A stretch of 64,000 bases of DNA, taken from contig NZ_VOBQ01000004.1 of assembly GCF_007833165.1 (NCBI RefSeq), positions 310,001-374,000 on the forward strand, given 5' to 3'. A model generated the notes under the pieces. The model was not told the origin of the DNA. It searched no databases and saw nothing but the letters and a program-made list of their open reading frames with translations. Position numbers and translations under genes: made by a program. Source of the stretch: Caenimonas sedimenti. GTDB taxonomy: Bacteria > Pseudomonadota > Gammaproteobacteria > Burkholderiales > Burkholderiaceae_C. Positions 13,121-36,788 of this stretch are shown piece by piece; within the stretch, counting starts at the first letter, position 1; each line of letters starts with the position of its first letter.

Positions 13121-13205
13121 ATTCGCCGATGCGCATTGCTGGAACAGCAGCTAATCATTTCAAGTCAACGGCAAGCGCACAACTCTGCGCGCAGCAGCGG
13201 CGGCG

Positions 13206-14129
13206 TCAGCCCTCGCGCGTGAGCTTGTGCCCGGTCAGTCGAGACAACTCCGCCAGAATCTCATCCTTGTCATTAAGGTGGGTAACGGCCTGCTCCAGTT
13301 CCATGAGCTTGGCACCGACCAGGAAGCGATACCAGTACCCTTGCAAGAAGTGGTACACCAACCCAGAGCGGCCATCCAGGAATCCCAGCTGAAAGACGTA
13401 GCGCCAGAGAAAGTATAACGTGGCACTTACGGTGAAAGGCAATCGGTTGTACACGCGTTCCTTGCCCCAGCGTTTAACATAGGCCTGCCATGACGCGCTC
13501 TGGCTGTTGAGCCCGTCGTCGCGGGCGAATAGTTGCATTCGCTGATTCAGAGCATCAATTGCCTCACGCGTAGCATATTTGTTGTGCTTATCAATGAAGA
13601 AAGTCAGATCGTTGAGATTGTGGTCCGCGAAGCCGCCGTTGAAATGGACAGTGCGGCCACCCCAAACGACCATGTGTTCGTCCATCCAGCGGTCTTCTAT
13701 GCGGCCGTGACCACGACGCCAAATGCGCAACAGGCGTAGGGGATAGCGACCGCCGTGCCGCACCCATCGGTTCATGAAGATGTGCTTGCGATCGAGATTT
13801 ATGCCAACGACGTCTGCCGGCAGACTGGGCAATTTCTCCGCGATCTCGTTCGCCAAGTCAAGCTCGATGATTTCATCAGCGTCCAGCCGCATCACCCAAG
13901 AACATGTGATGGGAGCGTTGTCCAACGCCCACTGGAACTGCTTAGCGTAGTTGACGAATGCATTATTCAAGACATGCGCCCCTGCACTCGTCGCGATGGT
14001 CACCGTGGAGTCTGTTGACCCCGAGTCAACTACGAAGATTTCCGAAGCTACACTCCTTACCGACGCCAGCGCTCGCGCCAAGTGAATCGCTTCATTTCGA
14101 ACAAGTATTACAACCGCCAGGTCCACCAT
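13206..14129 (-). CDS. family 2 glycosyltransferase (WaaE-like)
   Basis: A 307-residue GT-A fold transferase. MVDLAVVILVRNEAIHLARAL opens the nucleotide-binding domain, VVDSGSTDST follows, and the metal-binding DXD-type motif is MRLDADE. The C-terminal half (RWMDEHMVVWGG, then aromatic helices) resembles WaaE/KdtX-type glucosyltransferases. The ATG at 14129 is chosen because the preceding 37 codons look non-coding (PPLPPLPR) and the GT-A core starts here. It adds a sugar to the lipid-linked repeat unit on the cytoplasmic face; donor and acceptor are unknown. It stands alone on the minus strand between a transposase relic and a 0.5-kb gap. Confidence 0.85.
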   Translation of the reverse strand: MVDLAVVILVRNEAIHLARALASVRSVASEIFVVDSGSTDSTVTIATSAGAHVLNNAFVNYAKQFQWALDNAPITCSWVMRLDADEIIELDLANEIAEKLPSLPADVVGINLDRKHIFMNRWVRHGGRYPLRLLRIWRRGHGRIEDRWMDEHMVVWGGRTVHFNGGFADHNLNDLTFFIDKHNKYATREAIDALNQRMQLFARDDGLNSQSASWQAYVKRWGKERVYNRLPFTVSATLYFLWRYVFQLGFLDGRSGLVYHFLQGYWYRFLVGAKLMELEQAVTHLNDKDEILAELSRLTGHKLTREG

Positions 14130-14637
14130 TCCAGTTTCTGACTCAAGTTTTAATGAATCGAGAGTATGACCTGTTTCTACAGGAGTGCAGCGCGGCAACG
14201 GAGGCAAGGGAGGCAAGCACTCGACTAGAAGACGATGCATGAGGTTGGTTTTCTGCTTAAAATGTTTTTCAGCCCGTCACCTCTGGCTACTTCTCACAAC
14301 GCTTGCTCTTTTGAGGCAGGCGGCAGTAGTGTCTAGACGATTCTTGTCGAGCGCCGCATCCATTTGACCGGCAGCCATGCATGTCCGGATTTAGGCAGGG
14401 GGCGTCCCACAACCATTGACCGTCGGTCGGGCACATCCATATCTGGGTGACCACGCTTGTCAGCTGAGGCACATTTCTGTTCAACGCGGCTCATTCACTG
14501 TAAGTCGGAAGCCGAAGCCCTTATGCAATTGTTCACTGGATTAACCTAGCTATGGCGGACACTGATCTCGTCACCAAATTGCCCATGATACTGCGCTACT
14601 CGCGGACGAGGTCGTCGCTACTGACCTTTTTGATTTC
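14130..14637. other. gene-free 0.5-kb stretch
   Basis: Between a minus-strand glycosyltransferase and the plus-strand flippase there is no convincing gene. Short open frames have no family-like sequence or ribosome site. It probably holds divergent promoters for the two flanking genes, but I see no clear -35/-10 pair. Base composition shifts from GC-rich to AT-richer across it. Confidence 0.5.
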
Positions 14638-15792
14638 GTGAAAGCCAAGTTCGCAAGCATCGCGCTCGCAGGTGCGTATCTAGCTGGTCAAGGCTCGATG
14701 TTTCTGTTCCAAATGGCGTCGAAAGCCACTGGCCATTCCGAGTTGGCCGGCATCGCTGTGCTGGCAGCTACCATCCTTTCATTTGGATTTCAATTTTCCG
14801 AACTCGGGGCAGGTCGAATAATCTCATATTACGGCAATAGAGAATTTGATCGCCTATCTTCTTTTGTCGTATGTCGGATAATGATTGCAGTCGTCGCGGC
14901 ACTTCTTTTTGCCACCATGACTTCTCAATCATCAAATGAGCTTCAAGGTCTTCACTACTTGGGTTTCGCGATAGCGGTACTGGCCTCTGCCAATTTGGTT
15001 TCAATAGTCGAAGCCCGCCAATCGTACGTGGCCGTGGCAATCGCGTCTGCATTACCTTGGCTAGCAACCACGTTGGGAATGATGCTTTATGCAACGATTG
15101 GCGACATGCCCCTTTGGTCAGTTGGTGTTCTGCCGCTCGTTGTGGTCTTCAGCAGTTTATTCTGGTCCCACATAACATCTAACTTCAAATTAATAAACCG
15201 TTTACCTACGCCTCGAGCACTTAGCGAGACGGCCGCAATAGTCCTACCTCTACTATACGGTCAAGTTTGGGGTCGGCTTGTTGTGATTTTCTTCTTGGCC
15301 ACCTTGGGGTGGGAATCTCTCGCGAACTTCGGCATTGTACGATATTTGCAGGTTGCAATTGTTCTGATTTCCGGATTTATTCTTCGACCCTTGGTTCGGG
15401 GCCTGCTGGTTGGGGAAATCGATTCAAATCGCCAATTGCGACTTGGCGAATTTTTGCGTACTACGCGGAATCCATTTATTTTTTCCATAATTTCAACGTT
15501 GATCGCAGCAATCGTATTGTGGATCATTGGATCTGGACTGGAAGATTGGACAATTCTCCTATTCGTAGCCCCATTGCAAACCATTGCATCTATTGCCATT
15601 CAGATCAGCCATGCAAAGGGTCAAGCGATACAGATCTTCAAAATGGAACAAGTCGCACTCATGGTGAACGCGATTGTATTTTGTCTACTTTGGAACACCA
15701 ACCCAGCGTTAGCGATGGCAATTGGCGAAATGCTACAAATGGGCATTTTAATTGCTTATCGCATATTGATGGACCACAGAGGGAGCAACTGA
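14638..15792 (+). CDS. wzx: polysaccharide flippase-like membrane protein (Wzx candidate)
   Basis: A 384-residue, very hydrophobic protein with about ten to twelve predicted helices and the glycan-flippase style N-terminus (ALAGAYLAGQGSMFLFQ) and mid-protein YGQVWGRLVVIFFL. Wzx flips the undecaprenyl-linked repeat unit to the periplasm. It is shorter than many Wzx proteins (usually above 400), and the start is weak: GTG 14638 is the first usable start after an in-frame stop at 14563. Codon use is AT-richer than in the flanking export genes, a sign of separate origin. It is followed by the polymerase candidate on the same strand. MATE-like alternatives are not excluded. Confidence 0.75.
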   Translation: MKAKFASIALAGAYLAGQGSMFLFQMASKATGHSELAGIAVLAATILSFGFQFSELGAGRIISYYGNREFDRLSSFVVCRIMIAVVAALLFATMTSQSSNELQGLHYLGFAIAVLASANLVSIVEARQSYVAVAIASALPWLATTLGMMLYATIGDMPLWSVGVLPLVVVFSSLFWSHITSNFKLINRLPTPRALSETAAIVLPLLYGQVWGRLVVIFFLATLGWESLANFGIVRYLQVAIVLISGFILRPLVRGLLVGEIDSNRQLRLGEFLRTTRNPFIFSIISTLIAAIVLWIIGSGLEDWTILLFVAPLQTIASIAIQISHAKGQAIQIFKMEQVALMVNAIVFCLLWNTNPALAMAIGEMLQMGILIAYRILMDHRGSN

Positions 15793-15915
15793 ATTGTATT
15801 TCAATGAGCACTCTTATGCGATCACGAATTAATTCCTGACTTCCCGCGACATCTTAAATTCGAGCAAAGGACCACATAGATAAAAATTTTGCATGCGCGT
15901 GAGCTTTCCTCAGAG

Positions 15916-17196
15916 ATGCATGTTGCGTTTTTTCACTGCAACTCTGCAGACCTATACTACTGCTCCAACTGCTATATGAACTCGCTCTTTTTTGTTTTCC
16001 TGCTGGCTGGTGCGGTGTTTAAGAACGACATCGCAGATTTTGCTTTGTCCGAGTGGTACAGCGATATCTCTTGGCCACCAGTTGTCGTACTTTTAAAGCA
16101 GAGTTCTTACCTTTGGTTGACCGTAGCGGCAACGATCACGCTGCGCCTGCTGTTCAAAGGCTCCAAATTCAGAATTCGACGAAATGATCTCGCGTTAGTA
16201 TTGATACTTACCGCAATGACTGCCGCCCTACGAGGCGGATTCTACTCCATCGAGCTCGGAGTAAAAATTTTGATCGGAGCGGGTCTGCTTGCGATGATTG
16301 TTTTGGCGACGAACATCATGATCGCTCGTGATGGGATGCTGAGATACGGCGACGATCTTGTTCGTGGCTTATTGTGGTTCTCTCGTATATTCATAGTGTT
16401 GAACTTCGGGATGCTGCTTTTTGGTTATGGCATCGTGCTGGGCAATCCGCGGTTCTTCGGGTCTGCTGCGCATCCAAATTTCCTCGCGGTGCAGCTTACC
16501 GTCTGCGCCATCGTCCTATTCTCGGCAGTCTATTCCGATAAATTGCGGCGGAGCTGGCCGAATTGGTTGCTAATATTTGCGAGTTTGTATTTGCTCGTCG
16601 CCACCGGGTCACGTACTGGCCTCTTGATGACCAGCCTCGGCGTCGGCCTCTACGTCCTGTGTCGCAGTCGCTTCAAGCTAGCAGTTCTTCTTTGGGTAGC
16701 TATCGCCCTTGCCATATTTCTAGCGGCGATCCTGTCCATTGTGCCAGCGGACCTGTTGTTGTCCTTTGATCGCGGGGAGGTGGGCTTGGACACACGTTCA
16801 GAAGCATGGGGTTTTTTACTAGGTCTGATCGCTTCAGAGCCCATCTTCGGACATGGTTTGGTCACTTTCTATTCCGAGAATTCCTACCTTCGGGGACTCG
16901 CGAATTATGGCTTGGTGTACTTCGTGCCTTTTGTCTTCGTCGCGGTAGTTTCGACAATACGGTTGTGGAAGACCGCTCGGGCGTCCGAATATAAGCCAAT
17001 TTTTACCATGATGTTTTGCTTGCATGTATCTCTACTAACAGGAGCCATGCTTGAGGGTTACCTGATTGATCTTCTCAGCCTACCGGTATTCATGTATGTC
17101 ATTACCAGCACTTTTATTGCTGGACGCAGCGCGGGAAATTCTATGCGACGAAGTCCAATGAAAAGCAAAGACTTTGGGACAGTTCTGCATCATTAG
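15916..17196 (+). CDS. wzy: O-antigen ligase/polymerase-like membrane protein (Wzy candidate)
   Basis: A polytopic protein of about 426 residues with some ten to twelve helices. The Wzy_C/O-antigen-ligase region is visible as ATGSRTGLLMTSLGVG and the following large periplasmic loop with TRSEAWGFLLG...GHGLVTFYSENSYL, the H/R-containing motif typical of the family. In a Wzx/Wzy locus its role is polymerisation of repeat units in the periplasm. Three starts are possible: TTG 15889, ATG 15916 or ATG 15976. None has a strong ribosome site; 15916 is a compromise and the first membrane helix starts near 15976. AT-rich like its neighbour. Confidence 0.8.
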   Translation: MHVAFFHCNSADLYYCSNCYMNSLFFVFLLAGAVFKNDIADFALSEWYSDISWPPVVVLLKQSSYLWLTVAATITLRLLFKGSKFRIRRNDLALVLILTAMTAALRGGFYSIELGVKILIGAGLLAMIVLATNIMIARDGMLRYGDDLVRGLLWFSRIFIVLNFGMLLFGYGIVLGNPRFFGSAAHPNFLAVQLTVCAIVLFSAVYSDKLRRSWPNWLLIFASLYLLVATGSRTGLLMTSLGVGLYVLCRSRFKLAVLLWVAIALAIFLAAILSIVPADLLLSFDRGEVGLDTRSEAWGFLLGLIASEPIFGHGLVTFYSENSYLRGLANYGLVYFVPFVFVAVVSTIRLWKTARASEYKPIFTMMFCLHVSLLTGAMLEGYLIDLLSLPVFMYVITSTFIAGRSAGNSMRRSPMKSKDFGTVLHH

Positions 17197-17284
17197 CGTG
17201 CGAGCTTAACCAACTTTGGCTACGCAACAATAGGCACTCTGACCGCCCTCAATGGCACGTATCCATTTTTCGGGCGTGCCTCGA

Positions 17285-18388
17285 TCAGTATTGCGCGGAA
17301 ACTTCAAATTGCGGGGATCTTGAACGCCCTTTGACAGATTTAAATATCGCTTTCCACAGCCCTTTGGATGAGATGTCTGGCAAGTAGTAGGTAAAAATTT
17401 CCCGACTACGTCGATCGACGGCAAAAAACACATACAAGACACTGGAAACTAAGAGCGCACTCCCGCGGAGGCACCAAAGTAAATATAGGCCGCAAGCGAG
17501 CACAAACTTCAACCCCTTTAGATTGGTTAGCAGGAACCGCCACTCCGAATTGATTCCAGAGGGTACCACCCCAGCGAGGTCCCGTATCACAGCCGAAGAA
17601 ATCGTTCTGAACCGGTACCTCGATTCCGCTCGATCAATCATCGCCAAAAGTCTGGGGTCGCTGGTAACGGCTTGCCGCGAGGTTTTCCATGCGCCGATGT
17701 GACTTCTCGCCACGCGCCACCGGGGCAGAACTCGGTAATTGTAGGAAGCGAGGGGCTGCACAGTATTGTCGAAAGGCATCATATCAAGAAGTGCCATGCT
17801 GCTTTCGGCTCTAATTGAGGAAAACGCAATTAAGGCGTAGGGATGTTCCCACTGAATAGCCTCTCCGGCCGCCCCTAGCTGCTCTTCTACTACGCGTTTG
17901 CTGAATATGTAGTTTCCCAGAAAATGGAAATCACCCGACGAATTTCGGCCGTTATTGTATAAGAACTCAAGGCTCGAAACTTCGGAAACGTCGGCCAACC
18001 AAGGCAAGTTGGTCTTGTTTCGGAAAAATGCAAGATCGGGCTGCGCTGCACTAAGTGTTGAAATGAGCTCAGGCAGTATTTTCCATGTGACCGAGCTGTC
18101 ATCACCTATAAGCCATCTGAAGTTGCCAGTTGCGCATTCTAAGGATTTTAGGCAGTTTGCACCGGCGCCCAAATTCGAAGAATTTCTATGCGCAACCAGA
18201 TTCAGATTCCCGTCATACGTCGACAATCGAGACCACGAATTGTCTGTCGACGCATTGTCAGAGACAACGACTTCAAGTCCGGCGGAGGCATACTTTTCGA
18301 TAGCGCTCAACTGCGCCATAAGTTGTGACTCCCGGTTGTACGTAGGAATACAAATAGATAGAAGAGGAGGGACGTGGGCGTGAGGCAT
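17285..18388 (-). CDS. family 2 glycosyltransferase with C-terminal membrane helix
   Basis: A 367-residue GT-A transferase: LLSICIPTYNRESQL at the N-terminus, EVVVSDNASTDNS, then WLIGDDSS as the metal-binding site. A hydrophobic stretch near the C-terminus (FVLACGLYLLWCLRGSALLV) suggests membrane association. The ATG at 18388 begins MPHAHVPPLLSICIP; the upstream open frame runs into a decayed transposase end and is rejected. It probably adds one residue of the repeat unit. Donor sugar unknown. Confidence 0.83.
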   Translation of the reverse strand: MPHAHVPPLLSICIPTYNRESQLMAQLSAIEKYASAGLEVVVSDNASTDNSWSRLSTYDGNLNLVAHRNSSNLGAGANCLKSLECATGNFRWLIGDDSSVTWKILPELISTLSAAQPDLAFFRNKTNLPWLADVSEVSSLEFLYNNGRNSSGDFHFLGNYIFSKRVVEEQLGAAGEAIQWEHPYALIAFSSIRAESSMALLDMMPFDNTVQPLASYNYRVLPRWRVARSHIGAWKTSRQAVTSDPRLLAMIDRAESRYRFRTISSAVIRDLAGVVPSGINSEWRFLLTNLKGLKFVLACGLYLLWCLRGSALLVSSVLYVFFAVDRRSREIFTYYLPDISSKGLWKAIFKSVKGRSRSPQFEVSAQY

Positions 18389-18419
18389 TGGGCAACCAAG
18401 GGGGCGGGTAATTTGGGTT

Positions 18420-18505
18420 CTTGCCTGCGGCGGTTTCTGTGGACACCGGCGAGGCTTCTCGATCTCTCTCAAAGTCTATCGGACTGACGCAATCAAGTGT
18501 CAGAT
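18420..18505 (-). pseudogene. possible IS3-type transposase C-terminal scrap
   Basis: On the minus strand the frame reads HLTLDCVSPIDFERDRE, resembling the end of IS3-family transposases (xxLGYxSPxDFE). Only about 30 codons are present, directly upstream of the glycosyltransferase start. The match is short, so this is tentative. Confidence 0.3.
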
Positions 18506-18639
18506 GACCTACAGAAGGCTGAAACGCACTTGGAGGCCGCATCAGGCCCGTCGATTGGCGCGAAGCGCCGCCTATGGCTCGCGCTTCAGCCATCTTCGCA
18601 ATGCCGCTCGGCCGGCTGCGATGTGCCCTTGCAAATTGC

Positions 18640-18995
18640 CTCTTGGACATCTCAGGGTTGCGTTCGCACTCGGCGTTCTTCGTGGAGCTTGGCGCCGCAA
18701 TGTGGTGGCGTCCTCGATGCCGCCTCGCTTGAGCAGCAGGCCCTTGCGCTCCAGCAACGTTGACCACCTTGAAGATATATCCTCCTCCGCCTAGTCGTTA
18801 GTCCCCAGCAGATGTCGGAAGTTCAGGATGGCTTCTCGTCGGGAATTGCCTCGTTCAGGCTCAGGTGCGCGAAGCTGCAAAGCGCGGTGACCTTAAACAG
18901 TGCTCCTCCATCGCTGGATCATTCATCGCGTCGAGAACACCTCGCGCCGGGTCTCCTTCCCCTTGCCGGCATAGTCCGCGACCGCAGACTTATCT
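18640..18995 (-). pseudogene. IS5-family transposase remnant
   Basis: In the 0.96-kb gene-free stretch 18389-19348 the minus strand carries ordered pieces of an IS5-like transposase: ADYAGKGKETRREVF then (shifted) LDAMN, FAHLSLNEAIPDE, LNFRHLLG-like codons, LLLKRGGI and finally HIAAPSSTKNAECERNPEM. These match the order of IS5 blocks (EYAGKRKxTRxExFLxxMD; ESVPDETTILNFRHLLE; GTIVDATIIxAPSSTKNxxxxRDPEM). Frames change several times, so it is dead. The remainder of the gap, 18996-19348, shows nothing recognisable. Confidence 0.65.
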
Positions 18996-19348
18996 GGCTC
19001 ATCGCCACGCCCCTTTGCATCAGTCAACGCGCATCGGAAGATTCGGTGGACTTGTTTCAGACGCTCCTTAAGTCTGACATGCAATCTCGACTCGGTCGGA
19101 GAAGTGGCTTATCGCTTTTTGGACAGCATTCACGGATTCTTTAGTGGACTCCATGCGCTTTCCACACAATTGACGTCTTCGTCGAACAGGCTTTCGCCCT
19201 CGATTATTCAACGTGCTTTCATCTGTTGCGTTTCGTCCGCGCATTGCGATTTCGAGACAGAAGCGGAGCGGTCAAAACCCACAGTTCATACTTGACGCTG
19301 CGCGGAACGCGAAGACGAGCTCTTGGTGCGAAGGCCGCGCCCATCAAT

Positions 19349-20569
19349 CTACGCCTTTAAACTTCGGCCGGCTCTTCCTATGTATGTGTAAGGCCCTGTG
19401 GCCTCCTTTGCGCAATCCATCAACGCATGATGCAGGTTGTCTGCCACATTCTCGATGTAGAAGTGCCGATCAAAACATTGCAGTGCACGTTCACCCATCT
19501 GCTTGCGCTCGGCGGCGGACAGGGCGAGCCATCGGTCCAGTAGTGAATCGATCCCCTGCGGAGTCGCGTCGCCAATCAAGCCTGCCGCCTCGGACTCGAT
19601 CTCTCGCCAGATATTGACACCTTTGGTCGTCACCACCGGCACACCCGCTACCAATGCTTCTGCCAATGCGATCCCGAAATTCTCTTGGTAGGACGGCAAC
19701 ACAAAAACCTCTGCAGCCTGGATCGCACCCCATTTAAGATCGCCAAGCAACATCCCGGTGAAAGTTATCGAACTTCCAGCGCCACACGCTTGTGCAAGAT
19801 CTTTCAGCGTCTCTTCGTATTGGGCATTTCCGCTTCCTGCAATAACTAGGTGCAGCTGCGGATTAGTTGCACGGACTCGCGCAAACGACCTGATCAACAA
19901 CTCGCAGCCCTTTTTTTCATGCAGCCGCGACAGGAAGAGTAGCACGCGCTTTCCTACTAGTTGCGGGAAGGCTTGGGTAAACTGGTCCCGCTGGGCGGGT
20001 ACGAGGATCGGCTTCGCAATCCCGTATCCAACCAATCGTTCCCGTACCTTGTATAGCCAAAAGGAATTTCGCGCGAGCCGCAGCTCTTCGGCCGTGGTGA
20101 ACAACACAAGCCCAGCATCGCGAATCACCCTGTACTCACCCCAAGGCCAGTAGAGCCACTTCTTCAGGTGCTTAAACGGGTATCGCTGCTTGAACCAAGG
20201 GTCCAGCATTCCATGCAAGAAAATAGCGTAGGCAAAGCCTTGTCGCCGTGCAACCTTGGAAACGCAATACCCATGGTAACCCCACATCCCATGCACGAGG
20301 ATGGCGCTGTACTTCGACGCATTCAAGCGAAGCCACGGTTCCAAGCGAAAATTAAACCCATAAGCTCCGATCGAGGGCCCAAGCTGGACTACAGCGGACG
20401 CGGCAATGCGAGAGTCAACGCTGGCGCCTGGTCGATCAAGGCAAAGGGTATGGACTGTCCAGCCACGCTTCGCCAGTTCCTGGCCTTGCAAGATCGCTCC
20501 CTCCACTGGGCCACCAGCAGAGGGATGCAGAGTTGGAATGACCTGAAGTACTATGCGCGAGGTTGTCAA
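19349..20569 (-). CDS. family 4 glycosyltransferase (GT-B)
   Basis: A 406-residue GT-B transferase. N-terminal domain: IVLQVIPTLHPSAGGPVEGA, then ILVHGMWGYHG and FLHGMLDPWF. C-terminal domain: KRVLLFLSRLHEKKGCELLI and the E-x7-E nucleotide-sugar motif in ENFGIALAEALVAGVPVV. Retaining GT4 enzymes of this type often transfer hexoses in EPS synthesis. The start is TTG 20569, as no ATG lies near the N-terminal beta strand; the ribosome site is weak. It precedes the transposase relics and follows the tyvelose gene at a 256-base gap in which I see no gene. Confidence 0.88.
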   Translation of the reverse strand: MTTSRIVLQVIPTLHPSAGGPVEGAILQGQELAKRGWTVHTLCLDRPGASVDSRIAASAVVQLGPSIGAYGFNFRLEPWLRLNASKYSAILVHGMWGYHGYCVSKVARRQGFAYAIFLHGMLDPWFKQRYPFKHLKKWLYWPWGEYRVIRDAGLVLFTTAEELRLARNSFWLYKVRERLVGYGIAKPILVPAQRDQFTQAFPQLVGKRVLLFLSRLHEKKGCELLIRSFARVRATNPQLHLVIAGSGNAQYEETLKDLAQACGAGSSITFTGMLLGDLKWGAIQAAEVFVLPSYQENFGIALAEALVAGVPVVTTKGVNIWREIESEAAGLIGDATPQGIDSLLDRWLALSAAERKQMGERALQCFDRHFYIENVADNLHHALMDCAKEATGPYTYIGRAGRSLKA

Positions 20570-20825
20570 GGCGATTGAGGAAGACGGTCAGCTCGGCGGA
20601 TTCTGCAGCAGCCGATATTCGCGGCGTGGCGTACTCCGGGGGTGGGTTGATGGTAGCTGAAAGCTGCACACCGCTGTGTCGCCGTCAATATCATTCCTTT
20701 CCCGGATGCACCGACCTTCGGCAAATGGCGTCCACCAATACTACTTCCACGCGTGGCTCCAATCGTGTCTGATCAAATTGCCAAAATACCATTTTCAGTT
20801 TTGTAGATCGACGTCGATACGTCTA

Positions 20826-21860
20826 CTAATGGCGTGGACTATCATTCAAAACCACCCACTCAAGCATTTGACGCACGCCATCTGACGGGGTCACGACTGG
20901 ACTCCAACCAAGCATCCTACGTGCCTTAGAGATGTCGGCAACAAATACTCGCTGATCACTCTCTCGAGGAGGCAACTTTTCATACTGAAGCGGTTTTCCA
21001 ATAAAGCCTTCCAGCAGCGAGAACAATTCGAGTAACGACAGACTTTTGTCGATGCCGCCGCCGATGTTGAACGCTTGACCCTTCGCGATATCCATATGTT
21101 CAATCGCCTTGAAATAGAGGCTCACCATGTCACGCGCATGCAGTACGTCCCGTACCTGTTTGCCCGACCCAGATATTGTGAATGGTTGCGAGCTGACGCC
21201 TCCAGCAACTTCGGCCGCTTTCTGGCAGAACCATCCCACCCATCCTTGGTCGGCAGAGGCAAACTGACGTCCGCCATACATTGACGAATGACGAAATACT
21301 ATGGTGCGCAGGCCAAATATCCGGGCGAAGTCAAGCATGTACTGATCCGCCGCGCCTTTAGAGCATCCATACGGAGAATGGAAATCGAGACAGGTTTCTT
21401 CATCGAACCCTTGCGGACGATCAGTGCATTCGTATCGTGTCGCGGTTTCTTGATACTCGTACTGTTCAAGATCACCGTACACCTTGTTTGTCGATGAATA
21501 GACGATAGCGGCTGCAGGAGCCGCGTCTCGCACAGCTTCGAGCACATTGAACGTTCCGAATGCGTTCACTTCGAAGTCGTATCGACTATTTGCGATTGAG
21601 GTAGTCATTGCCACCTGACCGGCAAGGTGGAAGACTGCATCTGGCAACGACTCCGTGACGACACGACGCACATCATTGGCACTGCGGACGTCTCCATGAA
21701 CATGTCGAAATTCGCCAAGTGACTGGAGCCAGCGCAGGTTGTCGATCGACCCTTTGCGATAGAGACTGTCAAAGATGACCAGCTCGTCACCACGCTCGAT
21801 CGCGTGAGCGGCGAGGTTGCTGCCGAGAAATCCACAACCGCCGGTAATGAGAAGCTTCAT
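20826..21860 (-). CDS. tyv: CDP-paratose 2-epimerase (CDP-tyvelose synthase)
   Basis: A 344-residue extended SDR. It has the NAD site GGCGFLGSNLA at the N-terminus, YSSTNKVYGD and the catalytic YxxxK in HSPYGCSKGAADQY, followed by FRHSSMYGGRQFA and DQGWVGWFCQKA. These last motifs are characteristic of the CDP-tyvelose epimerases of Salmonella and Yersinia O-antigen clusters. It converts CDP-paratose to CDP-tyvelose at C2. The start overlaps the prt stop by four bases. It is the last gene of ddhD-ddhA-ddhB-ddhC-prt-tyv. Close relatives that act on other nucleotide sugars exist, but the pathway context supports this call. Confidence 0.88.
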   Translation of the reverse strand: MKLLITGGCGFLGSNLAAHAIERGDELVIFDSLYRKGSIDNLRWLQSLGEFRHVHGDVRSANDVRRVVTESLPDAVFHLAGQVAMTTSIANSRYDFEVNAFGTFNVLEAVRDAAPAAAIVYSSTNKVYGDLEQYEYQETATRYECTDRPQGFDEETCLDFHSPYGCSKGAADQYMLDFARIFGLRTIVFRHSSMYGGRQFASADQGWVGWFCQKAAEVAGGVSSQPFTISGSGKQVRDVLHARDMVSLYFKAIEHMDIAKGQAFNIGGGIDKSLSLLELFSLLEGFIGKPLQYEKLPPRESDQRVFVADISKARRMLGWSPVVTPSDGVRQMLEWVVLNDSPRH

Positions 21861-22741
21861 GATTTTTTCATTTCAAGTTCGACCGTTCTGGCTATCCCTT
21901 CCGTTAGCCCGTGTCTAGCTACCCAGCCCAAGCTTCGCATCCGACGCGTGTCAGCGCGACAATTCATGGCCTCGTTCTGACGGTATGGCAGTGCGCCAAA
22001 CAACAAGTTTGTTTGCGATTGAGTCACGGCACGGACTGTCTCCGCAAAACGACGCACAGTTGGCGCCTCCCCCGTGCCCACGTCAATTCGCTCGACAGTA
22101 TTCAGATCGCCGCGTGCACGCACCAATATATCGAAGGCCGATACAACATCATCGATGTAGATGAAGTCACGCTTCTGCTCGCCGGCAGTGAGGGAAAGTT
22201 CAGAAACTTGATCACGACATGAGCGGATTACGTGTGTGGTGAACTTCGAGGGAGAATCATTGGGTCCGTAAAAGTGCTGCAGCGCCACATCGACAAATTG
22301 CATGCGGCCTGCTAACTGGCCAGCCAACATCGTGCCCCAGTCGGAAAACTGCTTCTTACTGAGCGCGTAGGAGTTAACATGCCCTTCCAGTGCTGAGCCG
22401 GCGTTCAGGAACGTCACCCTGTTTGAAAACTTGCTACTCGCATCCATTAGAGCGAGGCCGAGTCGAACATTAGCGTCCAAAACATCTTGCAACGTCTCAC
22501 CCTGGCGACCATAAGAACAGGCCGTATGCACAATGACATCGGGTTCGAAGGACCGGATGCCCTCCGTGAGCTCTCGGTCGCTCTCGGGCCGCAGCACAGC
22601 CGAGCTCGTGATCGGAATGCCAACTTTCCGTAAGTCACTGTCGCGCCGCATGAGCAACATAATTTTGGCATCAGTTACTGCCCAGTAACGCGCCAGAGCG
22701 CTCCCTAGGAACCCAGTTCCACCAGTCAGTAGGAGCTTCAT
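21857..22741 (-). CDS. prt: CDP-paratose (or abequose) synthase-like reductase
   Basis: A 294-residue SDR with GGTGFLGSALARYW at the N-terminus, FLNAGSAL in place of the SSS strand and the catalytic YxxxK in NSYALSKKQF. It is predicted to reduce CDP-4-keto-3,6-dideoxyglucose at C4. Paratose and abequose synthases catalyse this with opposite stereochemistry and cannot be told apart by eye. Because the next gene encodes a tyvelose epimerase, which uses CDP-paratose, paratose synthase is favoured. It starts 10 bases after ddhC and overlaps tyv by four bases, a tight operon. Confidence 0.78.
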   Translation of the reverse strand: MKLLLTGGTGFLGSALARYWAVTDAKIMLLMRRDSDLRKVGIPITSSAVLRPESDRELTEGIRSFEPDVIVHTACSYGRQGETLQDVLDANVRLGLALMDASSKFSNRVTFLNAGSALEGHVNSYALSKKQFSDWGTMLAGQLAGRMQFVDVALQHFYGPNDSPSKFTTHVIRSCRDQVSELSLTAGEQKRDFIYIDDVVSAFDILVRARGDLNTVERIDVGTGEAPTVRRFAETVRAVTQSQTNLLFGALPYRQNEAMNCRADTRRMRSLGWVARHGLTEGIARTVELEMKKS

Positions 22742-22751
22742 GTATTTGACT

Positions 22752-24095
22752 TCAGAACGTGAGTCCGAAGAATTCTTCCAAGCGCACCGCGACGTACTCG
22801 AGGTGATCGCGACTCAAACCGGGATATACACCCAACCAAAACGTCTGATTCATCACAGTGTCAGTGTTGGTCAATTCGCCGCTGATTCGGTAGTTACGCC
22901 CTAGCATGTAGGGCTGGCGTGTGAGATTCCCGGCAAACAACAGGCGCGTACCAACCCGATTCTGGTCAAGGTATGTGAGGAGATCCACCCGCTTTACTCC
23001 ACTCGTCTCCTTTAGAACTGCCGGAAACCCGAACCAGCTCGGGTTGGATTTCGGCGTGGCCTCAGGCAGGTGAAGAAACTCCTCACAGGTTCGGAGTCGC
23101 CCCTTCAAGAACGCGAAATTCTCGCGGCGGATACGAATGAAATCCTCCACCCGATCCATTTGAGCCAATGCGCAAGCGGCCTGCATATCCGTAATTTTGA
23201 GGTTGTAGCCAAGGTGACTGTATGTGTACTTGTGGTCATAGCCTTCCGGCAAGTCACCTAGCTTCCAACAGAAGCGCTTGTTGCAAGTATTGTCCTTGCC
23301 AGGCGGGCAGTAACAGTCTCGCCCCCAATCGCGGAACGATTCCGCAATCACCTTCAATTCGGCGTTGTTCGTGAACACTGCGCCGCCCTCGCCCATAGTG
23401 ATGTGATGCGCGGGGTAAAAGCTGAGCGTGCCGATATCGCCAAAGGTCCCTACCGAACGGCCGTCATAAGTGGCGCCAAGTGCATCACAGCAATCCTCGA
23501 CCAGCCACAGCCCGTACTTTCTGCAAAGCGCGGTGACGACATCCAAGTTGAAGGGATTTCCAAGGCTGTGAGCCAGCATGATGGCTTTCGTCCTCGGACT
23601 GATCGCAGCTTCGATCTTGTCGGCATCGATGTTGTGCGTGGCGAGATCGACATCGACGAATACCGGCACGGCGCCGAACTGCAAGATCGGGTTCACCGTC
23701 GTCGGGAACCCTGCTGCGACTCCGATTACCTCATCTCCGGGTCGTATGGCTCGCTCGCCGAGCTTGGGCGAAGTCAGCGTCGAAAAAGCGACTAGATTTG
23801 CGGAGGACCCCGAGTTAACCGTGATTGCGTGCTTGACGCCAATGAACGCCGCGAGCCGCTCTTCGAATTCGGCGTTGAATCGACCGGTTGTGAGCCAACC
23901 ATCCAGGCTAGCCTCGACCATCAATTGGAGTTCTCGCGCCCCAATGACCTTTCCGGAGACGGGCACAGGCGACTCTCCGGGAACGAACGGGCGCGGCGCA
24001 TGAACCAATTCGGCGTACTGGTTCACGAGCCGGGAAATCTCCGTTCGGATAGCTTCCGGGTTCTTTTGACTGAAATAAATGGGAGTGACGCTCAT
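22752..24095 (-). CDS. ddhC: CDP-4-keto-6-deoxyglucose 3-dehydrase (E1, RfbH type)
   Basis: A 447-residue aspartate-aminotransferase-fold enzyme that removes the C3 hydroxyl of CDP-4-keto-6-deoxyglucose using PMP and a [2Fe-2S] cluster. The hallmark is present: the usual PLP lysine is replaced by histidine in [16 protein letters not shown] cysteine group, [16 protein letters not shown] plus CC in VEDCCDALG, supplies cluster ligands as in Yersinia E1. [12 protein letters not shown] and GFPTTVNPI are also typical. Length matches the family (about 437). It works with the DdhD reductase encoded first in the operon. Confidence 0.94.
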
Positions 24096-24105
24096 GGTTG
24101 TTGAT

Positions 24106-25170
24106 TCAATTCTGCAAAGACGTTGAATAGCGCGCGATCTGCTGCAAGGTCATCTCGCGCGGGTCGCCGTCGGACAGCCAGTGCCGGTGCCAACTTACGA
24201 TTTGGTCAAGACTCTCAGGCAGGGTCCACCGCGGGCGCCAAGCTAGTCGTGCCCTGGCCTTTGAAATGTCTAATTTCAGGGAGTTCGCTTCGTGAGGATG
24301 AGATCTTCCGTCCAGCGCCCATGACGTCCCTCCTCCCCATGCAGCCACCATCCGATCGACGATCCAGCTGACGGGTTTGGCATCGTCCTCCTTGGGGCCG
24401 AAGTTCCACCCTTCCGCGAATTGCGCTCCGTCCTCTGCGCAAAGCCGTGCTGCGAGGCTCATGTAGCCAGAAAGCGGCTCCAAGACATGCTGCCAAGGGC
24501 GCGTGGCCTGGGGACTGCGGACGATGACAGTTTGGCTCTTCTCAAACGCACGCAGGATGTCCGGGATAAGACGGTCAGCCGCCCAATCGCCACCGCCAAT
24601 GACATTGCCTGCACGCGCAGAGGCAACCAGGATCCCAGCATCTGCCAAAAAAGACTTCCGGTACGCACTCGTCACGAGTTCTGCACATCCTTTACTGCTG
24701 CTATACGGATCATGGCCGCCCATCGGCTCGTCTTCGCGGTAAGGCCAGAGCCATTCCTTGTTCTCGTAGCACTTGTCCGTAGTGACATTCACGACGGCCC
24801 TCACTCCGCTGGACGCTCGAACGGCTTCCAGCAAATTGACCGTTCCCATGACGTTCGTCTCATAGGTCAATGCTGGCTGTTCGTAGGAGAGCCGCACCAA
24901 CGGCTGCGCGGCCATATGGATCACGACCTCCGGCCGGAAGGCGCGAAGCACAGCGAGGACTTTCTGCGCGTCACGGACATCGCCAACCACGCTCTGCATT
25001 CCTTCGGCTACCTTCGCCTCTTGGAACAAGTTGGGAGTCGTCGGCGGTTCGAGCGCAAATCCCAGCACTTCCGCGCCCAATTGCTGCAGCCAAAGACTCA
25101 ACCAGCTACCTTTGAATCCAGTATGACCAGTGAGGAACACGCGGCGCCCACGCCAAAATCCGGCGTCCAT
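24106..25170 (-). CDS. ddhB: CDP-glucose 4,6-dehydratase
   Basis: A 354-residue extended SDR making CDP-4-keto-6-deoxyglucose. The ATG at 25170 begins [21 protein letters not shown], matching the family N-terminus ([21 protein letters not shown]); an ATG at 25182 overlapping ddhA is possible. [25 protein letters not shown] with the YxxxK, and [13 protein letters not shown] are diagnostic of CDP-glucose dehydratases. It starts two bases after the ddhA stop and ends 10 bases before ddhC. Confidence 0.95.
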
Positions 25171-25172
25171 GC

Positions 25173-25946
25173 TCAGTTCCATTTTTTCCACGGCGCTCGC
25201 CCGCTCGCCCACAACTCCTCCAACAGATGCTTGTCGCGCAGAGTATCCATTGGTTGCCAAAAACCGTCATGTCTGAACCCCATCAGCTCGCCACTTTCTG
25301 CAAGCTGGTTGAGCGGCTCCTGCTCCCAAACAGTCTTGTCGCTCTTGATGTATGTCAACACCTGCGGGTTGAGAACGAAGAAGCCTCCGTTGACCAAAGC
25401 ACCGTCGCCTCTCGGCTTCTCCTTGAAATTGATCACCCGCCCATCTTGAATGTCGATCGCGCCGAAACGGCCCGGAGGATAGGTCGCGGTCATCGTAGCC
25501 ACCTTGCCATGCTCCCTATGAAAAGCGATGGAGCCGGTGATGTCGATGTCGCCTACCCCGTCTCCATACGTGAAACAGAACGCTTCGTCGTCCTTGACGT
25601 ACTTGGCCACGCGAAGCAAGCGCCCCCCAGTCATCGACTCATCGCCCGTGTCAACCAGCGTGACATTCCACGGTTCAGCCCGCTTTTGGTGCACCTCCAT
25701 TCGGTTCGACCGCATGTCGAACGTCACGTCGGACATGTGCAAGAAATAGTTGGCAAAGTATTCCTTGATCACATAGCCCTTGTACCCGCAGCAAATGACG
25801 AAATCATTGATGCCGTGATGCGAGTACATCTTCAGAATGTGCCAGAGGATGGGTCGGCCGCCGATCTCCACCATGGGCTTCGGGCGTGTGGCAGTTTCCT
25901 CGCTGAGCCGGGTGCCTAGACCCCCAGCCAAGATGACGGCTTTCAT
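25173..25946 (-). CDS. ddhA: glucose-1-phosphate cytidylyltransferase
   Basis: A 257-residue nucleotidyltransferase that activates glucose-1-phosphate with CTP to CDP-glucose, the entry to the 3,6-dideoxyhexose pathway. The signature [18 protein letters not shown]...[10 protein letters not shown] is complete, as are [11 protein letters not shown] (metal site) and [18 protein letters not shown]. Full length for RfbF/DdhA. It follows ddhD by 14 bases and is nearly joined to ddhB. Confidence 0.96.
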
Positions 25947-25960
25947 GTCGGTTTCCTAAT

Positions 25961-26956
25961 TTAGTTCGAGCTGACAAAGGCATCGGAATGGAACTGGCGA
26001 GGATGTAACCCGTGCTCGACGAGCTTGGCGCGGGCGGCATGGATCATTGCATCAGAGCCGCACGCAAACACAGTTGCATCTGCAAGGGGAATCCGGTCGT
26101 CTAGGACGGCCTGTTGCACGTACCCATTGCGATGACCGCCGCCACACGCCGGCGCTCGCGAAAGCACTTTCGTGTAGCGAACGGGCATGCCCGCAGGGAC
26201 AGGGTCGAAGTAGTGGTCCGCAGGCGTGCGCCCACCCCAATATACGTGGAGGATATGGGTGGTGTCCGCCTGAGCCAGCGCTTCGAGCATGGCTTTCACC
26301 GGTGCGATGCCGGTGCCCGTCGCCAAAAACACCAGATTCCTTTTGGCGTCGCTGCGCAAGCTGAAGGTGCCAAGCGGGCCATGAATTCGAAGCAAGTCAT
26401 TGACGTTCGCGTGCTCAAACCAATAGGCGCTAAAAGCGCCACCTTCGACGCGTCGGATGTGCAAGCAGAGACGCCCATCCGACCGTGGCGCGTTCGCGAT
26501 CGAGTAACTTCTGCGAAGCCCGCCCGGCCCGATAACATCCAGATATTGCCCAGGCATGTATCGGATCACCGACCCCGGCGGAAAACGCAGACGCACGCTC
26601 ATCACATCGTCCGCAAACCGGTCTAAACCCTCAATGCGCGCTGGCATTGTTTTCGGCGTGAAATCGGCAAGCTCACCTAAATCTGTGCCATCCAGCACTA
26701 AGTCGCCGGCCGCAACCCGACAGCACGTAAGAATGTAACCTGCCTCACGTTCCGCATCGGTCAGACTCACTTCATCTCGCCTGACGGCCGTCTCACCTCT
26801 CACAAGCAAGGTCTTGCAAACGCCACAGCGACCAGTACGACAACTGTGTTCAAGCGCCAATCCTGCCGTACGAGCTTCCTCAAGCAATACCATCTGGCCA
26901 GATGCAGCAAATTGCTTTCCATCGGCGAGCGTCACCGTCCAAGAGTCCGCCGTCAT
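25961..26956 (-). CDS. ddhD: CDP-6-deoxy-delta-3,4-glucoseen reductase (E3)
   Basis: A 331-residue electron-transfer flavoprotein. It has an N-terminal plant-type ferredoxin domain with CRTGRCGVC and a distal cysteine in ILTCC, then an FAD-binding domain (RYMPGQYLDVIGPGG, RRSYSIANAP) and an NAD(P)H domain (LVFLATGTGIAPVKAML, VFACGSDAMI). It passes electrons from NADH to the E1 (DdhC) intermediate. It is the first gene of the ddh operon, with 139 bases upstream that should hold the promoter. A paralogue sits at 36789-37847; operon context makes this copy the pathway enzyme. Confidence 0.9.
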   Translation of the reverse strand: MTADSWTVTLADGKQFAASGQMVLLEEARTAGLALEHSCRTGRCGVCKTLLVRGETAVRRDEVSLTDAEREAGYILTCCRVAAGDLVLDGTDLGELADFTPKTMPARIEGLDRFADDVMSVRLRFPPGSVIRYMPGQYLDVIGPGGLRRSYSIANAPRSDGRLCLHIRRVEGGAFSAYWFEHANVNDLLRIHGPLGTFSLRSDAKRNLVFLATGTGIAPVKAMLEALAQADTTHILHVYWGGRTPADHYFDPVPAGMPVRYTKVLSRAPACGGGHRNGYVQQAVLDDRIPLADATVFACGSDAMIHAARAKLVEHGLHPRQFHSDAFVSSN

Positions 26957-27095
26957 CTTTCTCTCTGTTGGTTGCCCGACGAATTAATGCAACACCCAAG
27001 GTGCCGCGTCACTGTCTCAACTAAAGTTGGAACCATGCGGCCTACGCGCATCACCGACGTCTTCGGCAAAGTCTTGTCGCGAGCTACCATCGGCG

Positions 27096-28079
27096 TCAGC
27101 TTTGGACCTTTTTAATCTTGTATTTACCGCGTCTGAAGTACACCCAGCCGGCGACGGAGGGGGGCACAAGATACTGCAGCATCCGTATCAACGCCCGACG
27201 CCTCAGCGACTGGTAACTTGCAGCGTGAGCCCAAAATGGATCGGCAACGCGATACCCGTATGCTTTCGCCACAATACAGTCAATCCCAATGCGAATCACA
27301 GACACTTCCGTCGTTCGCCAAGTCGCGACGGCATCCGTCGTTCTGCCGCCAGCCTCAAGCGCCAACAACAGTGATGGCATGCTGACAAGCCAGTACCGCG
27401 GCCAATCGTTCTTCCAAATTTGCACTCCTCGTCTTTGAACAAGAAGCGGCATTCCAATGAAAACGCAGGTCCTGTCAAGCAATCCCCCATACACCCGCGC
27501 AAGAAATTTATAGCCGTCGAATTCTTTCCTGTAAAACTCTTCGCCATCTCGCCAGACTGTTCTAGAAAATATTAGAGCACTGACGAATCCCGGGTGGTGG
27601 GTAAACCGACGGATGAATTCCGGGGCAGAGAGTGTCCGATCTACCATCCCCCATCCGTCGTGCGCGAGTTCGCCGAAATTTGAAAGATCTTCATCACCAA
27701 TTAGCCTGTTGAAATAGGCCATCCCCGGCGAGCCACCACGTATTATGGCGAGGGCCTTCTCGATGAACCCGGGGAAGGGCACATCATCGTCGCCGAAGAT
27801 GTTGATGTACTCACCCGTACTTTGGTCGATACAGCGCAGGAAGCTGTCGTCCAATGATAGTCGGTCGCCATTGGTTATAACCCGTGCAAATTCCGGCAGC
27901 CCCGCTGACGACAGAAATTCACGAGTCCCATCGACCGAGGCATTGTCAATCACTAGTAATTCGACTTGATCGAGGTGAGGCCGGATCTGACCTGCCAATG
28001 CCGACAAAGTATGACGGAGAAGCTCGCATCTTCCGATCGTGGGGACCACGACGCTCAACAACGGCCGATTCAAGGTCAA
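27096..28079 (-). CDS. family 2 glycosyltransferase
   Basis: A 327-residue GT-A transferase: LLSVVVPTIGRCELLRHTL, ELLVIDNASVDGT and the metal site NIFGDDDVP. A C-terminal basic tail (YFRRGKYKIKK) could touch the membrane. The start is taken as TTG 28079, overlapping the upstream acetyltransferase stop by four bases (TTGA); the longer frame upstream is the acetyltransferase read out of phase. It may attach the dideoxyhexose or another side sugar; this cannot be read from sequence. Confidence 0.83.
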   Translation of the reverse strand: MTLNRPLLSVVVPTIGRCELLRHTLSALAGQIRPHLDQVELLVIDNASVDGTREFLSSAGLPEFARVITNGDRLSLDDSFLRCIDQSTGEYINIFGDDDVPFPGFIEKALAIIRGGSPGMAYFNRLIGDEDLSNFGELAHDGWGMVDRTLSAPEFIRRFTHHPGFVSALIFSRTVWRDGEEFYRKEFDGYKFLARVYGGLLDRTCVFIGMPLLVQRRGVQIWKNDWPRYWLVSMPSLLLALEAGGRTTDAVATWRTTEVSVIRIGIDCIVAKAYGYRVADPFWAHAASYQSLRRRALIRMLQYLVPPSVAGWVYFRRGKYKIKKVQS

Positions 28080-28768
28080 ACCATCATCTCCCGAGCCCTC
28101 AGGACACGAGCTGGATTGCCAGCAACGACAGTCCACGCGGGTACGTTGCGAGTTACGACAGAGCAAGCGCCAACGACCACGCCTTGCTCAATCGTCACTC
28201 CCGGTAGAACAGTAGACTTCGCTGCGATCCAAACCTGGTCCTTAATAACTATAGGGATACAAGTGAGATCTAGAACGGGGGACTGGAAGTCATGCGTGGC
28301 CGCGCACAGATAGGAATACTGTGAAACGACTGTCATTGAACCAATCTCAACCGAAGCCAAATTATAAATTTCGACACCCCAAGCTATGGCGGAAAAATCA
28401 CCTACACGGAGATTCCATGGACACCAGACGCGTACGCCCCCATGAACCAAGACGCGACTACCAATCTTTGCGCCAAAAATTCTAAGCAATAGAACGCGAA
28501 TAACGGAAAAATGCTTACCTAGGGGCAGACGGAGTAACCACGAAAACGGTTCCCATGCAGCTCGCATTGCCTTCACGCGCAAGGGCCACCCGCTCTTGGT
28601 GCGAAGCAGATCGACTTTCAAAGATCCTCTAACTTTCGAAGCAAGTTCAACTGCCCATAGCTCAGTGGTCTGCACCAAGAATGAACTAGATGAGCCAAAA
28701 TGGGGGGTTTCGACCTGCCGTTCACCGAACATCTCTTGGCTCTTGGCAGCAGACTCGTTAGGCTGCAC
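28076..28768 (-). CDS. hexapeptide-repeat acyltransferase (WcaF-like)
   Basis: A 230-residue left-handed beta-helix acetyltransferase. Hexapeptide repeats run from about residue 95 to 215 (GAKIGSRVLVHGGVRVW, IGSMTVVSQYSYL, VWIAAKSTVLPGVTI, GVVVGACSVVTRNV), ending VVAGNPARVLR as in the WcaF/CysE group. It probably O-acetylates a sugar of the polymer from acetyl-CoA. The N-terminal 70 residues are unusual and may be partly non-coding if an internal start is used. It overlaps the next glycosyltransferase, forming a two-gene unit. Confidence 0.86.
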   Translation of the reverse strand: MQPNESAAKSQEMFGERQVETPHFGSSSSFLVQTTELWAVELASKVRGSLKVDLLRTKSGWPLRVKAMRAAWEPFSWLLRLPLGKHFSVIRVLLLRIFGAKIGSRVLVHGGVRVWCPWNLRVGDFSAIAWGVEIYNLASVEIGSMTVVSQYSYLCAATHDFQSPVLDLTCIPIVIKDQVWIAAKSTVLPGVTIEQGVVVGACSVVTRNVPAWTVVAGNPARVLRAREMMV

Positions 28769-28857
28769 CTCAACGCCCGAACCATCGCAACTAGGGGGCT
28801 CCAGATATGCGCCTTGGCGCTCATCCTGGGTACGCGGCCGATCGAACTAGCTTGAGG

Positions 28858-29628
28858 CTAGTGCGCTCCGTGACCCGTGAGCACGACTTTCACAGTCTTC
28901 AGCAGAATGCAGAGGTCCAACCACAACGACCATTCCTGCACATAGCGCACGTCCATTCGCACCCGTTCCGCATACGTTAGCGTGTTGCGCCCACTCACCT
29001 GCCAGAGCCCAGTGATTCCCGGTCGCATGGTGCAATATGTTGTCCAATGCTCCCCATAGTACTTGTCTTGGTCCGCCATGCACGGCCGCGGCCCTACCAA
29101 ACTCATGTCACCGAGCAGCACATTCCAAAATTGGGGCAATTCATCCAGACTGGTCCGGCGGATAAAACTCCCAAATCGGGTGATTCGCGGATCCCTTTCC
29201 AGCTTCTGGTGCGTCTCCCACTTGGCCCTGGCAGCGCTGTCACTGTCCAAAAAGCTGTTCAGCACCTCATCGCCATCCATCACCATGGAGCGGAATTTGA
29301 TGAAGGCAAAGCGCCGCCCGCCAATGCCCACTCGATACTGCCAATAATGCACGGGCCCCGGCGAACTGAGCTTCACGCCCAGAGCCACAAGAAGATACAG
29401 CGGCATTCCAAGCACGAGGAACAGCGCTGCACCAGTGATATCCAACAGGCGCTTCAAGACCCTGCCCACACCTGAAGCACCAATAGATCGGACATGCACG
29501 TCCCTGGCGATTGCCTGCGGCGGCGTCTCGATCAGCCGGTCGTCTGAGTCAACCCTATACATTGTCAATCCCTGAATGCCCTTGCGAGTTGCAAAATCCA
29601 TGCTACGGTTAGCAACATTCTGAAGCAT
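28858..29628 (-). CDS. initiating sugar-phosphate transferase (small polyprenyl-phosphate type)
   Basis: A 256-residue monotopic transferase that places the first sugar phosphate on undecaprenyl phosphate. One hydrophobic re-entrant helix (RLLDITGAALFLVLGMPLYL) precedes the catalytic block with KFRSMVMDGDE, ITRFGSFIRRTSLDELPQF and LVGPRP, then PGITGLWQVSGRN, all diagnostic of the WbaP/WcaJ/PglC superfamily. It lacks the large N-terminal membrane region of WcaJ. The start is uncertain: ATG 29628 or ATG 29562 (MYRVDSDDRL). It reads divergently from manC, probably sharing a 100-base control region. Confidence 0.92.
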   Translation of the reverse strand: MLQNVANRSMDFATRKGIQGLTMYRVDSDDRLIETPPQAIARDVHVRSIGASGVGRVLKRLLDITGAALFLVLGMPLYLLVALGVKLSSPGPVHYWQYRVGIGGRRFAFIKFRSMVMDGDEVLNSFLDSDSAARAKWETHQKLERDPRITRFGSFIRRTSLDELPQFWNVLLGDMSLVGPRPCMADQDKYYGEHWTTYCTMRPGITGLWQVSGRNTLTYAERVRMDVRYVQEWSLWLDLCILLKTVKVVLTGHGAH

Positions 29629-29733
29629 CTTAGCTTAGCTGCGACGGCGGTCTATCCCCCATCAGGCGTACAGAAATGATGCGGTGCACACTAATTCACA
29701 TCCCCTGCAGCTTTCATACCCGAATCTATCAGC

Positions 29734-35279: not shown

Positions 35280-35410
35280 TGATACTGATCCAAAATCCCG
35301 GTGCGTCTTCGCGCTCGTTGAATTACGTCTTGTGGGATTGTGCCGTCTTTCAGGTCGCCACCCGAGAACTACGTCGTGCTGGCAACCCGCCGCGGCCAGC
35401 AGCTCGACAG

Positions 35411-36744: not shown

Positions 36745-36788
36745 AATCCGGGCAACGACGACATCGACAAGAGCCCGAGGATACCCAC

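Follow-up and report, generated by a model that had tools for sequence, protein, structure and literature searches.

A likely CDP-tyvelose operon within a low-GC surface-polysaccharide locus of Caenimonas sedimenti

A stretch of 64,000 nucleotides from Caenimonas sedimenti (NCBI RefSeq assembly GCF_007833165.1, contig NZ_VOBQ01000004.1, positions 310,001 to 374,000 of the forward strand), referred to below as the window and numbered from its first base, carries six nucleotide-sugar genes on the minus strand at 20826-26956. All six open reading frames (ORFs) are intact and, from the upstream end, are arranged in the order ddhD-ddhA-ddhB-ddhC-prt-tyv. The spacing from ddhD to tyv is +14, +2, +10, and +10 bases, followed by -4 at the overlap of prt and tyv; the coordinates and the tight packing (gaps of 2-14 bases or a 4-base overlap) given in an earlier sequence-only reading of this DNA were confirmed. 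The genes, the lengths of their products in amino acids (aa), and the matches to Salmonella counterparts or to curated models are listed below; CDP stands for cytidine diphosphate.

25961..26956, minus strand: ddhD, CDP-6-deoxy-delta-3,4-glucoseen reductase (E3) of the ferredoxin-FAD-NAD type, 331 aa; Fer2, FAD_binding_6, and NAD_binding_1; 37% identical to RfbI over 322 aa

25173..25946, minus strand: ddhA, glucose-1-phosphate cytidylyltransferase, 257 aa; TIGR02623 at 473.8 bits (cut-off 300.25); 77% identical to RfbF

24106..25170, minus strand: ddhB, CDP-glucose 4,6-dehydratase, 354 aa; TIGR02622 at 500.2 bits (cut-off 278.45); 60% identical to RfbG

22752..24095, minus strand: ddhC, CDP-4-keto-6-deoxyglucose 3-dehydrase (E1, RfbH), 447 aa; NF011936 at 746.1 bits (cut-off 423); 70% identical to RfbH

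21857..22741, minus strand: prt, candidate CDP-paratose synthase (RfbS-like 4-reductase), 294 aa; 30% identical to RfbS and placed in the RfbS/RfbJ clade

20826..21860, minus strand: tyv, putative CDP-tyvelose (paratose) 2-epimerase, 344 aa; 66% identical to 1ORR and to RfbE

Because identities to the Salmonella counterparts range from 30 to 77%, with an expect value (E) of 3e-53 even for Prt, these matches are not due to chance. DdhA, DdhB, and DdhC all lie above NCBIfam equivalog cut-offs. The start of ddhB was taken as the ATG at 25170, which aligns with the start of Salmonella RfbG and leaves a 2-base gap; the TTG at 25260 in the ORF list would overlap ddhA. E1 dehydrases carry a C-X57-C-X-C-X7-C iron-sulphur motif and have a histidine in place of the pyridoxal phosphate lysine, and in DdhC the residues Cys203, Cys261, Cys263, and Cys271, together with the motif FYPAHH, are conserved as in Salmonella RfbH. 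DdhD was below cut-off in every curated reductase model tried in the NCBIfam search and is 54-56% identical to the operonic DdhD of four other loci (L015, L016, L017, and L021). A second DdhD-like reductase, located on the plus strand at 36735-37847, scored higher than the operonic DdhD against Salmonella RfbI (226 vs 192 bits, or 225 vs 199 bits with BLAST), so naming by best hit would misplace ddhD. This second gene looks like a core gene rather than a part of the operon, since it was matched at E 1e-70 in 98 of 100 family genomes, that of C. sedimenti included.

Tyv matched the crystal structures 1ORR and 9RL0 at E values of about 1e-152 (8e-153 for 1ORR). The catalytic and CDP-binding residues named for the epimerase TyvE in the accessible part of PMC7851689 are present (G7, G10, G13, T124, Y164, K168, W207, W210, and F211), and Ser230 is the same as in the Salmonella and Yersinia enzymes. 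In a tree from which loci L001-L014 and L018 were omitted, the window Tyv was grouped with five others, from three family genomes and two named Burkholderiales records, with a support of 95 in the Shimodaira-Hasegawa-like approximate likelihood ratio test (SH-aLRT). Salmonella RfbE was placed in the same larger group and the Thermodesulfatator atlanticus enzyme in another, the split being weak (SH-aLRT 82). The window Tyv is predicted to act on CDP-paratose.

Prt was aligned with the Salmonella paratose synthase RfbS over 292 residues and with the abequose synthase RfbJ at 31% identity over 222 residues (E 1e-34). When RfbS was used as a query of the window ORFs, Prt scored 148 bits and the runner-up ORF 29 bits. 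Prt was below cut-off in all curated models of the NCBIfam search, and among solved structures no close relative was found (best E 4e-11). In a Prt tree of 87 rows, a 68-row clade containing RfbS and RfbJ was recovered with an SH-aLRT of 95, with other short-chain dehydrogenase/reductase (SDR) rows outside it, and the window Prt belonged to an 8-row clade made up of Burkholderiales and one Halieaceae (SH-aLRT 100). Repeat loci (L007, L009-L013, and L018), proteins scoring below 80 bits, and ORFs that after trimming fell outside 200-420 aa were omitted from this tree, in which the outgroup was not set apart by a single branch and the RmlD row was very long. The sequence-only reading had named a grouping of prt or tyv with unrelated nucleotide-sugar epimerases as an outcome that would speak against it; no such grouping appeared in either tree, and the idea that Prt is an unrelated epimerase was rejected on its placement in the RfbS/RfbJ clade. 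At some other loci (L060, L064, L067, L075 and L063, L080, L084, L085, L088) the SDR gene directly before tyv lies outside this clade, which may point to another end sugar. In L060 a further gene, one that does belong to the RfbS/RfbJ clade, follows tyv at a distance of about 3 kb, and L079 has two Prt-like genes, one before tyv and the other about 3 kb after it.

From the gene content, gene order, motifs, and family placement observed here, the six genes are read with considerable confidence as one CDP-D-tyvelose operon whose tyvelose would then serve as a side sugar of a Wzy-assembled polysaccharide. The proposal of the sequence-only reading that all steps from glucose-1-phosphate to CDP-tyvelose are encoded is well supported by sequence; CDP-tyvelose is the likely product, and the operon is probably functional. 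In the predicted pathway, glucose-1-phosphate would be converted to CDP-glucose by DdhA and then to CDP-4-keto-6-deoxyglucose by DdhB, after which the 3-hydroxyl would be removed by DdhC, with pyridoxamine phosphate and an iron-sulphur cluster, using DdhD as electron donor. Prt would reduce the 4-keto group to give CDP-paratose, and inversion at C-2 by Tyv would give CDP-tyvelose. Prt is the weak link of the pathway; paratose is preferred over abequose as its product because the adjacent tyv belongs to an enzyme family acting on CDP-paratose.

Several observations weigh against this assignment. The identity between Prt and RfbS is just 30%, RfbJ is matched as well (118 bits with BLAST, vs 166 bits for RfbS), and paratose and abequose synthases are not split in the Prt tree, which was a quick one supported by SH-aLRT only, carried a long-branch warning for RfbS and RfbJ, and was built from rows chosen by a profile seeded with the window Prt, RfbS, and RfbJ. 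The sugar pockets of T. atlanticus and enteric TyvE are fully conserved, so that pocket residues do not predict the substrate (PMC7851689, accessible in part). The window Tyv also has Ala203, vs Tyr in 1ORR and 9RL0; Ala is found in two close relatives as well, and the contact at position 203 is ascribed to the main chain in the accessible part of the same study.

The ambiguity of Prt, whose tree leaves the stereochemistry at C4 unfixed and which resembles RfbJ too, would suit an operon in which CDP-paratose or CDP-abequose is the sugar put to use and Tyv has little or no activity, as in Salmonella group A, which uses paratose and has lost Tyv function (PMC3715488, accessible in part). Such an outcome is unlikely, since tyv of the window is intact, overlaps prt by four bases, and has kept its catalytic residues, and since the Salmonella stretch for abequose is without an annotated tyv in its incomplete gene table (L102). 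The likeness of the window Tyv to 9RL0, the T. atlanticus TyvE (64% identity, with identical catalytic residues), raises a second alternative, in which Tyv would be a 2-epimerase of CDP-glucose or CDP-6-deoxyglucose and the end product a mannose-type sugar. The T. atlanticus enzyme reportedly epimerises CDP-glucose and has no activity on CDP-3-deoxyglucose, and the conserved sugar pocket does not discriminate between the substrates (PMC7851689, accessible in part). A full set of 3-deoxygenation genes, ddhC and ddhD, is present in the same operon, however, and the window Tyv is nearer to RfbE than to 9RL0, if with weak support, which makes a CDP-glucose epimerase very improbable.

The CDP-tyvelose reading also accords with known gene clusters. 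The gene order matches that of Salmonella enterica ddhDABC-prt-tyv (rfbIFGHSE), as had been claimed for enteric O-antigen clusters; this order was pieced together from two Salmonella records, one with rfbF-G-H, paratose synthase, and epimerase (L101) and the other with a reductase, rfbF-G-H, and abequose synthase (L102), the ddhD slot of L101 being empty in its incomplete gene table. Salmonella and Yersinia pseudotuberculosis share the order of ddhDABC followed by abe or prt/tyv according to the accessible part of PMC3715488. The flanks differ, in that tyv of L101 is followed by a MATE-type transporter and a glycosyltransferase of family 2 (GT2), whereas in the window tyv is followed by a family 4 glycosyltransferase (GT4) and a GT2, and ddhD is preceded by a GT2 and a WcaF-like acetyltransferase. 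Five Burkholderiales clusters (family genomes G144, G056, and G046, with Tyv 68-74% identical to that of the window, and loci L041 and L049, the latter from Aquabacterium) have the same six genes in the same order.

At E 1e-80, Tyv was found in 6 of 150 family genomes, that of C. sedimenti included, and in four of these (C. sedimenti, G144, G056, and G046) the six genes are complete and in this order; the fetched stretch of G113 contains ddhA-B-C-prt-tyv and no ddhD, and G123 has a divergent Tyv (50%) near a contig end. In a sample of the phylum, Tyv was present in 3 of 398 genomes, again counting C. sedimenti. A wider tblastn search with Tyv (one genome per species, E 1e-3) gave at least 554 places, among which other SDR enzymes are possible, and the best 80 loci (56-74% identity) were examined. 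In this set, ddhA, ddhB, ddhC, prt, and tyv were on one strand in 37 of the 80, in this order in 27, and in this order with ddhD in front in 7. The count of ordered loci disregards intervening genes, the prt profile was seeded with the window Prt, RfbS, and RfbJ, and genes may be missed beyond the contig ends at the 26 of the 80 loci that are shorter than 15 kb; L062 duplicates the contig of G113/L018, and L039 and L040 have identical Tyv and Prt. The 27 ordered loci come from six named phyla, with two unassigned. Eight of the best 80 are betaproteobacterial by NCBI placement, namely Sideroxydans, a Burkholderiaceae metagenome-assembled genome (MAG), Rhodoferax, Janthinobacterium, a Comamonadaceae MAG, a Burkholderiales MAG, Aquabacterium, and Variovorax; the order was shown by six of the eight, the Sideroxydans and Burkholderiaceae MAG loci being on pieces whose start is no more than about 1 kb from tyv.

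The gene set is thus uncommon per genome and widely spread across bacteria, and its spread over several phyla removes most of the surprise of the operon. As far as chemical reports go, the sequence-only reading may be right that soil betaproteobacteria are not a usual source of such sugars. The same is not true of the gene set: with ddhD or lacking it, the set occurs in Rhodoferax, Janthinobacterium, Aquabacterium, Variovorax, and two further Burkholderiales records as well as in other phyla, and the soil origin is without support. The description of the host as a betaproteobacterium is supported, since the tyv contig of family genome G113 agrees in content with that of Variovorax sp. PCZ-1, assigned to Betaproteobacteria by NCBI. 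Tyvelose in a betaproteobacterium was named in no title or abstract opening found, in a literature coverage that mostly leaves out subscription papers. A proteome table from flocculation work on Azospirillum brasilense lists a putative CDP-tyvelose 2-epimerase (PMC4264754, accessible in part), which suggests that a tyvelose epimerase-type gene is expressed in this soil bacterium.

Among the 51 ddhC-bearing loci of the best-80 set, ddhD was present in the fetched stretch of 8 and absent from that of 43, with 120 bits as the threshold; lower-scoring hits (28-80 bits) occurred in L025, L050, L059, L063, and L077. An apparent group of ddhC genes lacking the iron-sulphur motif in a pattern scan was rejected as a spacing artefact, the four cysteines being aligned in all rows except L016. 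Because these cysteines are kept in loci without a ddhD of this score, the electron donor for DdhC there may be a general reductase, such as that at 36735-37847, or a ddhD sited elsewhere. In L016, which belongs to genome G056, the ddhC frame is apparently interrupted near the last iron-sulphur cysteine, either by a sequencing error or because the gene is broken.

The operon is surrounded by further polysaccharide genes, which were annotated as follows.

28858..29628, minus strand: undecaprenyl-phosphate hexose-1-phosphate transferase (initiating, C-terminal type); PF02397 at 221.2 bits, WbaP and EPS_sugtrans models below cut-off

28076..28768, minus strand: WcaF-like hexapeptide O-acetyltransferase; NF007797 at 160.9 bits, below the cut-off of 192

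27096..28166, minus strand: GT2 glycosyltransferase (Glycos_transf_2), leading candidate for the 3,6-dideoxyhexosyl transferase; position of the true start uncertain

19349..20569, minus strand: GT4 glycosyltransferase downstream of tyv; PF00534 at 108.1 bits

17285..18472, minus strand: GT2 glycosyltransferase, dideoxyhexosyl transferase candidate of second choice; top hit of Salmonella RfbV in the C. sedimenti genome (58.1 bits, with only RfbV residues 2-117 aligned)

15889..17196, plus strand: Wzy-like polymerase; PF04932 Wzy_C at 36.3 bits (cut-off 31.7), about 9 hydrophobic stretches

14638..15792, plus strand: Wzx candidate of 384 aa; about 10 hydrophobic stretches, no family matched

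10020-12281: Wzc-type kinase; Wzz, GNVR, and AAA_31

33891-35498: nucleotide-sugar dehydrogenase; general nucleotide-sugar dehydrogenase model only, presumed to form uridine diphosphate (UDP)-glucuronate

A YjbH protein is also encoded in this locus, and the neighbours Gmd (guanosine diphosphate (GDP)-mannose 4,6-dehydratase), Fcl (GDP-L-fucose synthase), and ManC are above equivalog cut-offs. The description of the locus as a Wzx/Wzy exopolysaccharide (EPS) locus in the sequence-only reading was therefore borne out for Wzy, the Wzc-type kinase, and the initiating transferase, with Wzx as a candidate only; of the neighbouring sugar pathways it listed, GDP-fucose and GDP-mannose stand on equivalogs and UDP-glucuronate is a presumption from the general dehydrogenase model. 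The other precursors of the polymer would include GDP-fucose and GDP-mannose, probably along with a UDP-sugar acid. A neighbouring GT2, that at 27096-28166 as first choice and that at 17285-18472 as second, probably attaches tyvelose as a side sugar to the Wzy-assembled polysaccharide, which the WcaF-like enzyme may acetylate. As regards the suggestion that the polymer may carry tyvelose or paratose, the genes and the locus are upheld by sequence, and the sugar itself would, after transfer and export, be expected in EPS or lipopolysaccharide.

The GT2 at 27096-28166 was made the first candidate because its best match follows tyv in Flavobacterium caseinilyticum (L099), which has the same six genes in order. 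Among ORFs of loci L010-L099, the best matches of this GT2 and of the WcaF-like protein at 28076-28768 are adjacent genes at that place, with 169 bits (36% over 317 aa) and 131 bits (41% over 165 aa), respectively, and runners-up at 64 and 57 bits. In Flavobacterium the pair lies after tyv, whereas in the window it lies before ddhD, and the Flavobacterium Tyv and Prt are in other tree branches than those of the window. The GT2 had no match above 45 bits in the five Burkholderiales clusters and was matched at E 1e-25 in none of 398 further genomes sampled from the order; it was accordingly rejected as a common companion of tyv, and the pairing with Flavobacterium rests on one locus. RfbV was not decisive as a guide to the tyvelosyltransferase, since it matches two GT2s of the window and one other place in the genome with its N-terminal part only. 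A speculative and rather doubtful proposal is that the operon, this GT2, and the WcaF-like gene form a portable cassette that provides a side branch of O-acetylated tyvelose and is exchanged between Burkholderiales and Bacteroidota, and that the GT2 is a kind of tyvelosyltransferase different from enteric WbaV.

The guanine-plus-cytosine (GC) content of the window is 54.0% at 13000-29700, vs 63.5% before and 64.6% after, which places the operon in a surface-polysaccharide island of low GC, a composition to be expected if such an island is exchangeable. This low GC and the identity of the Salmonella gene order might be taken to indicate a recent import from an enteric bacterium. Tyv (6-row clade, SH-aLRT 95) and Prt (8-row clade, SH-aLRT 100) are nevertheless grouped with Burkholderiales and not with Salmonella, the sole enteric source compared, and Prt is as distant from RfbS as noted above; a recent enteric origin is therefore not supported and is exceedingly improbable.

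Tyvelose is chiefly known as an immunodominant sugar of enteric pathogens (PMC7725333, accessible in part), and detection of Salmonella makes use of polymerase chain reaction (PCR) for the TyvE gene (PMC13098431, accessible in part). The widespread occurrence of TyvE-related genes would be a reason to check the specificity of such PCR primers. The E1/E3 step reportedly yielded no product when enteric enzymes were used (PMC7851689), and the enzymes of the window could offer another source for it. The operon of C. sedimenti is a further instance of a gene set already present in several phyla, and its presence in non-enteric bacteria of these phyla fits the view of an ancient gene order (PMC3715488, accessible in part). 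For C. sedimenti itself, the predicted CDP-tyvelose operon provides a concrete, testable prediction for one glycan of this genome.

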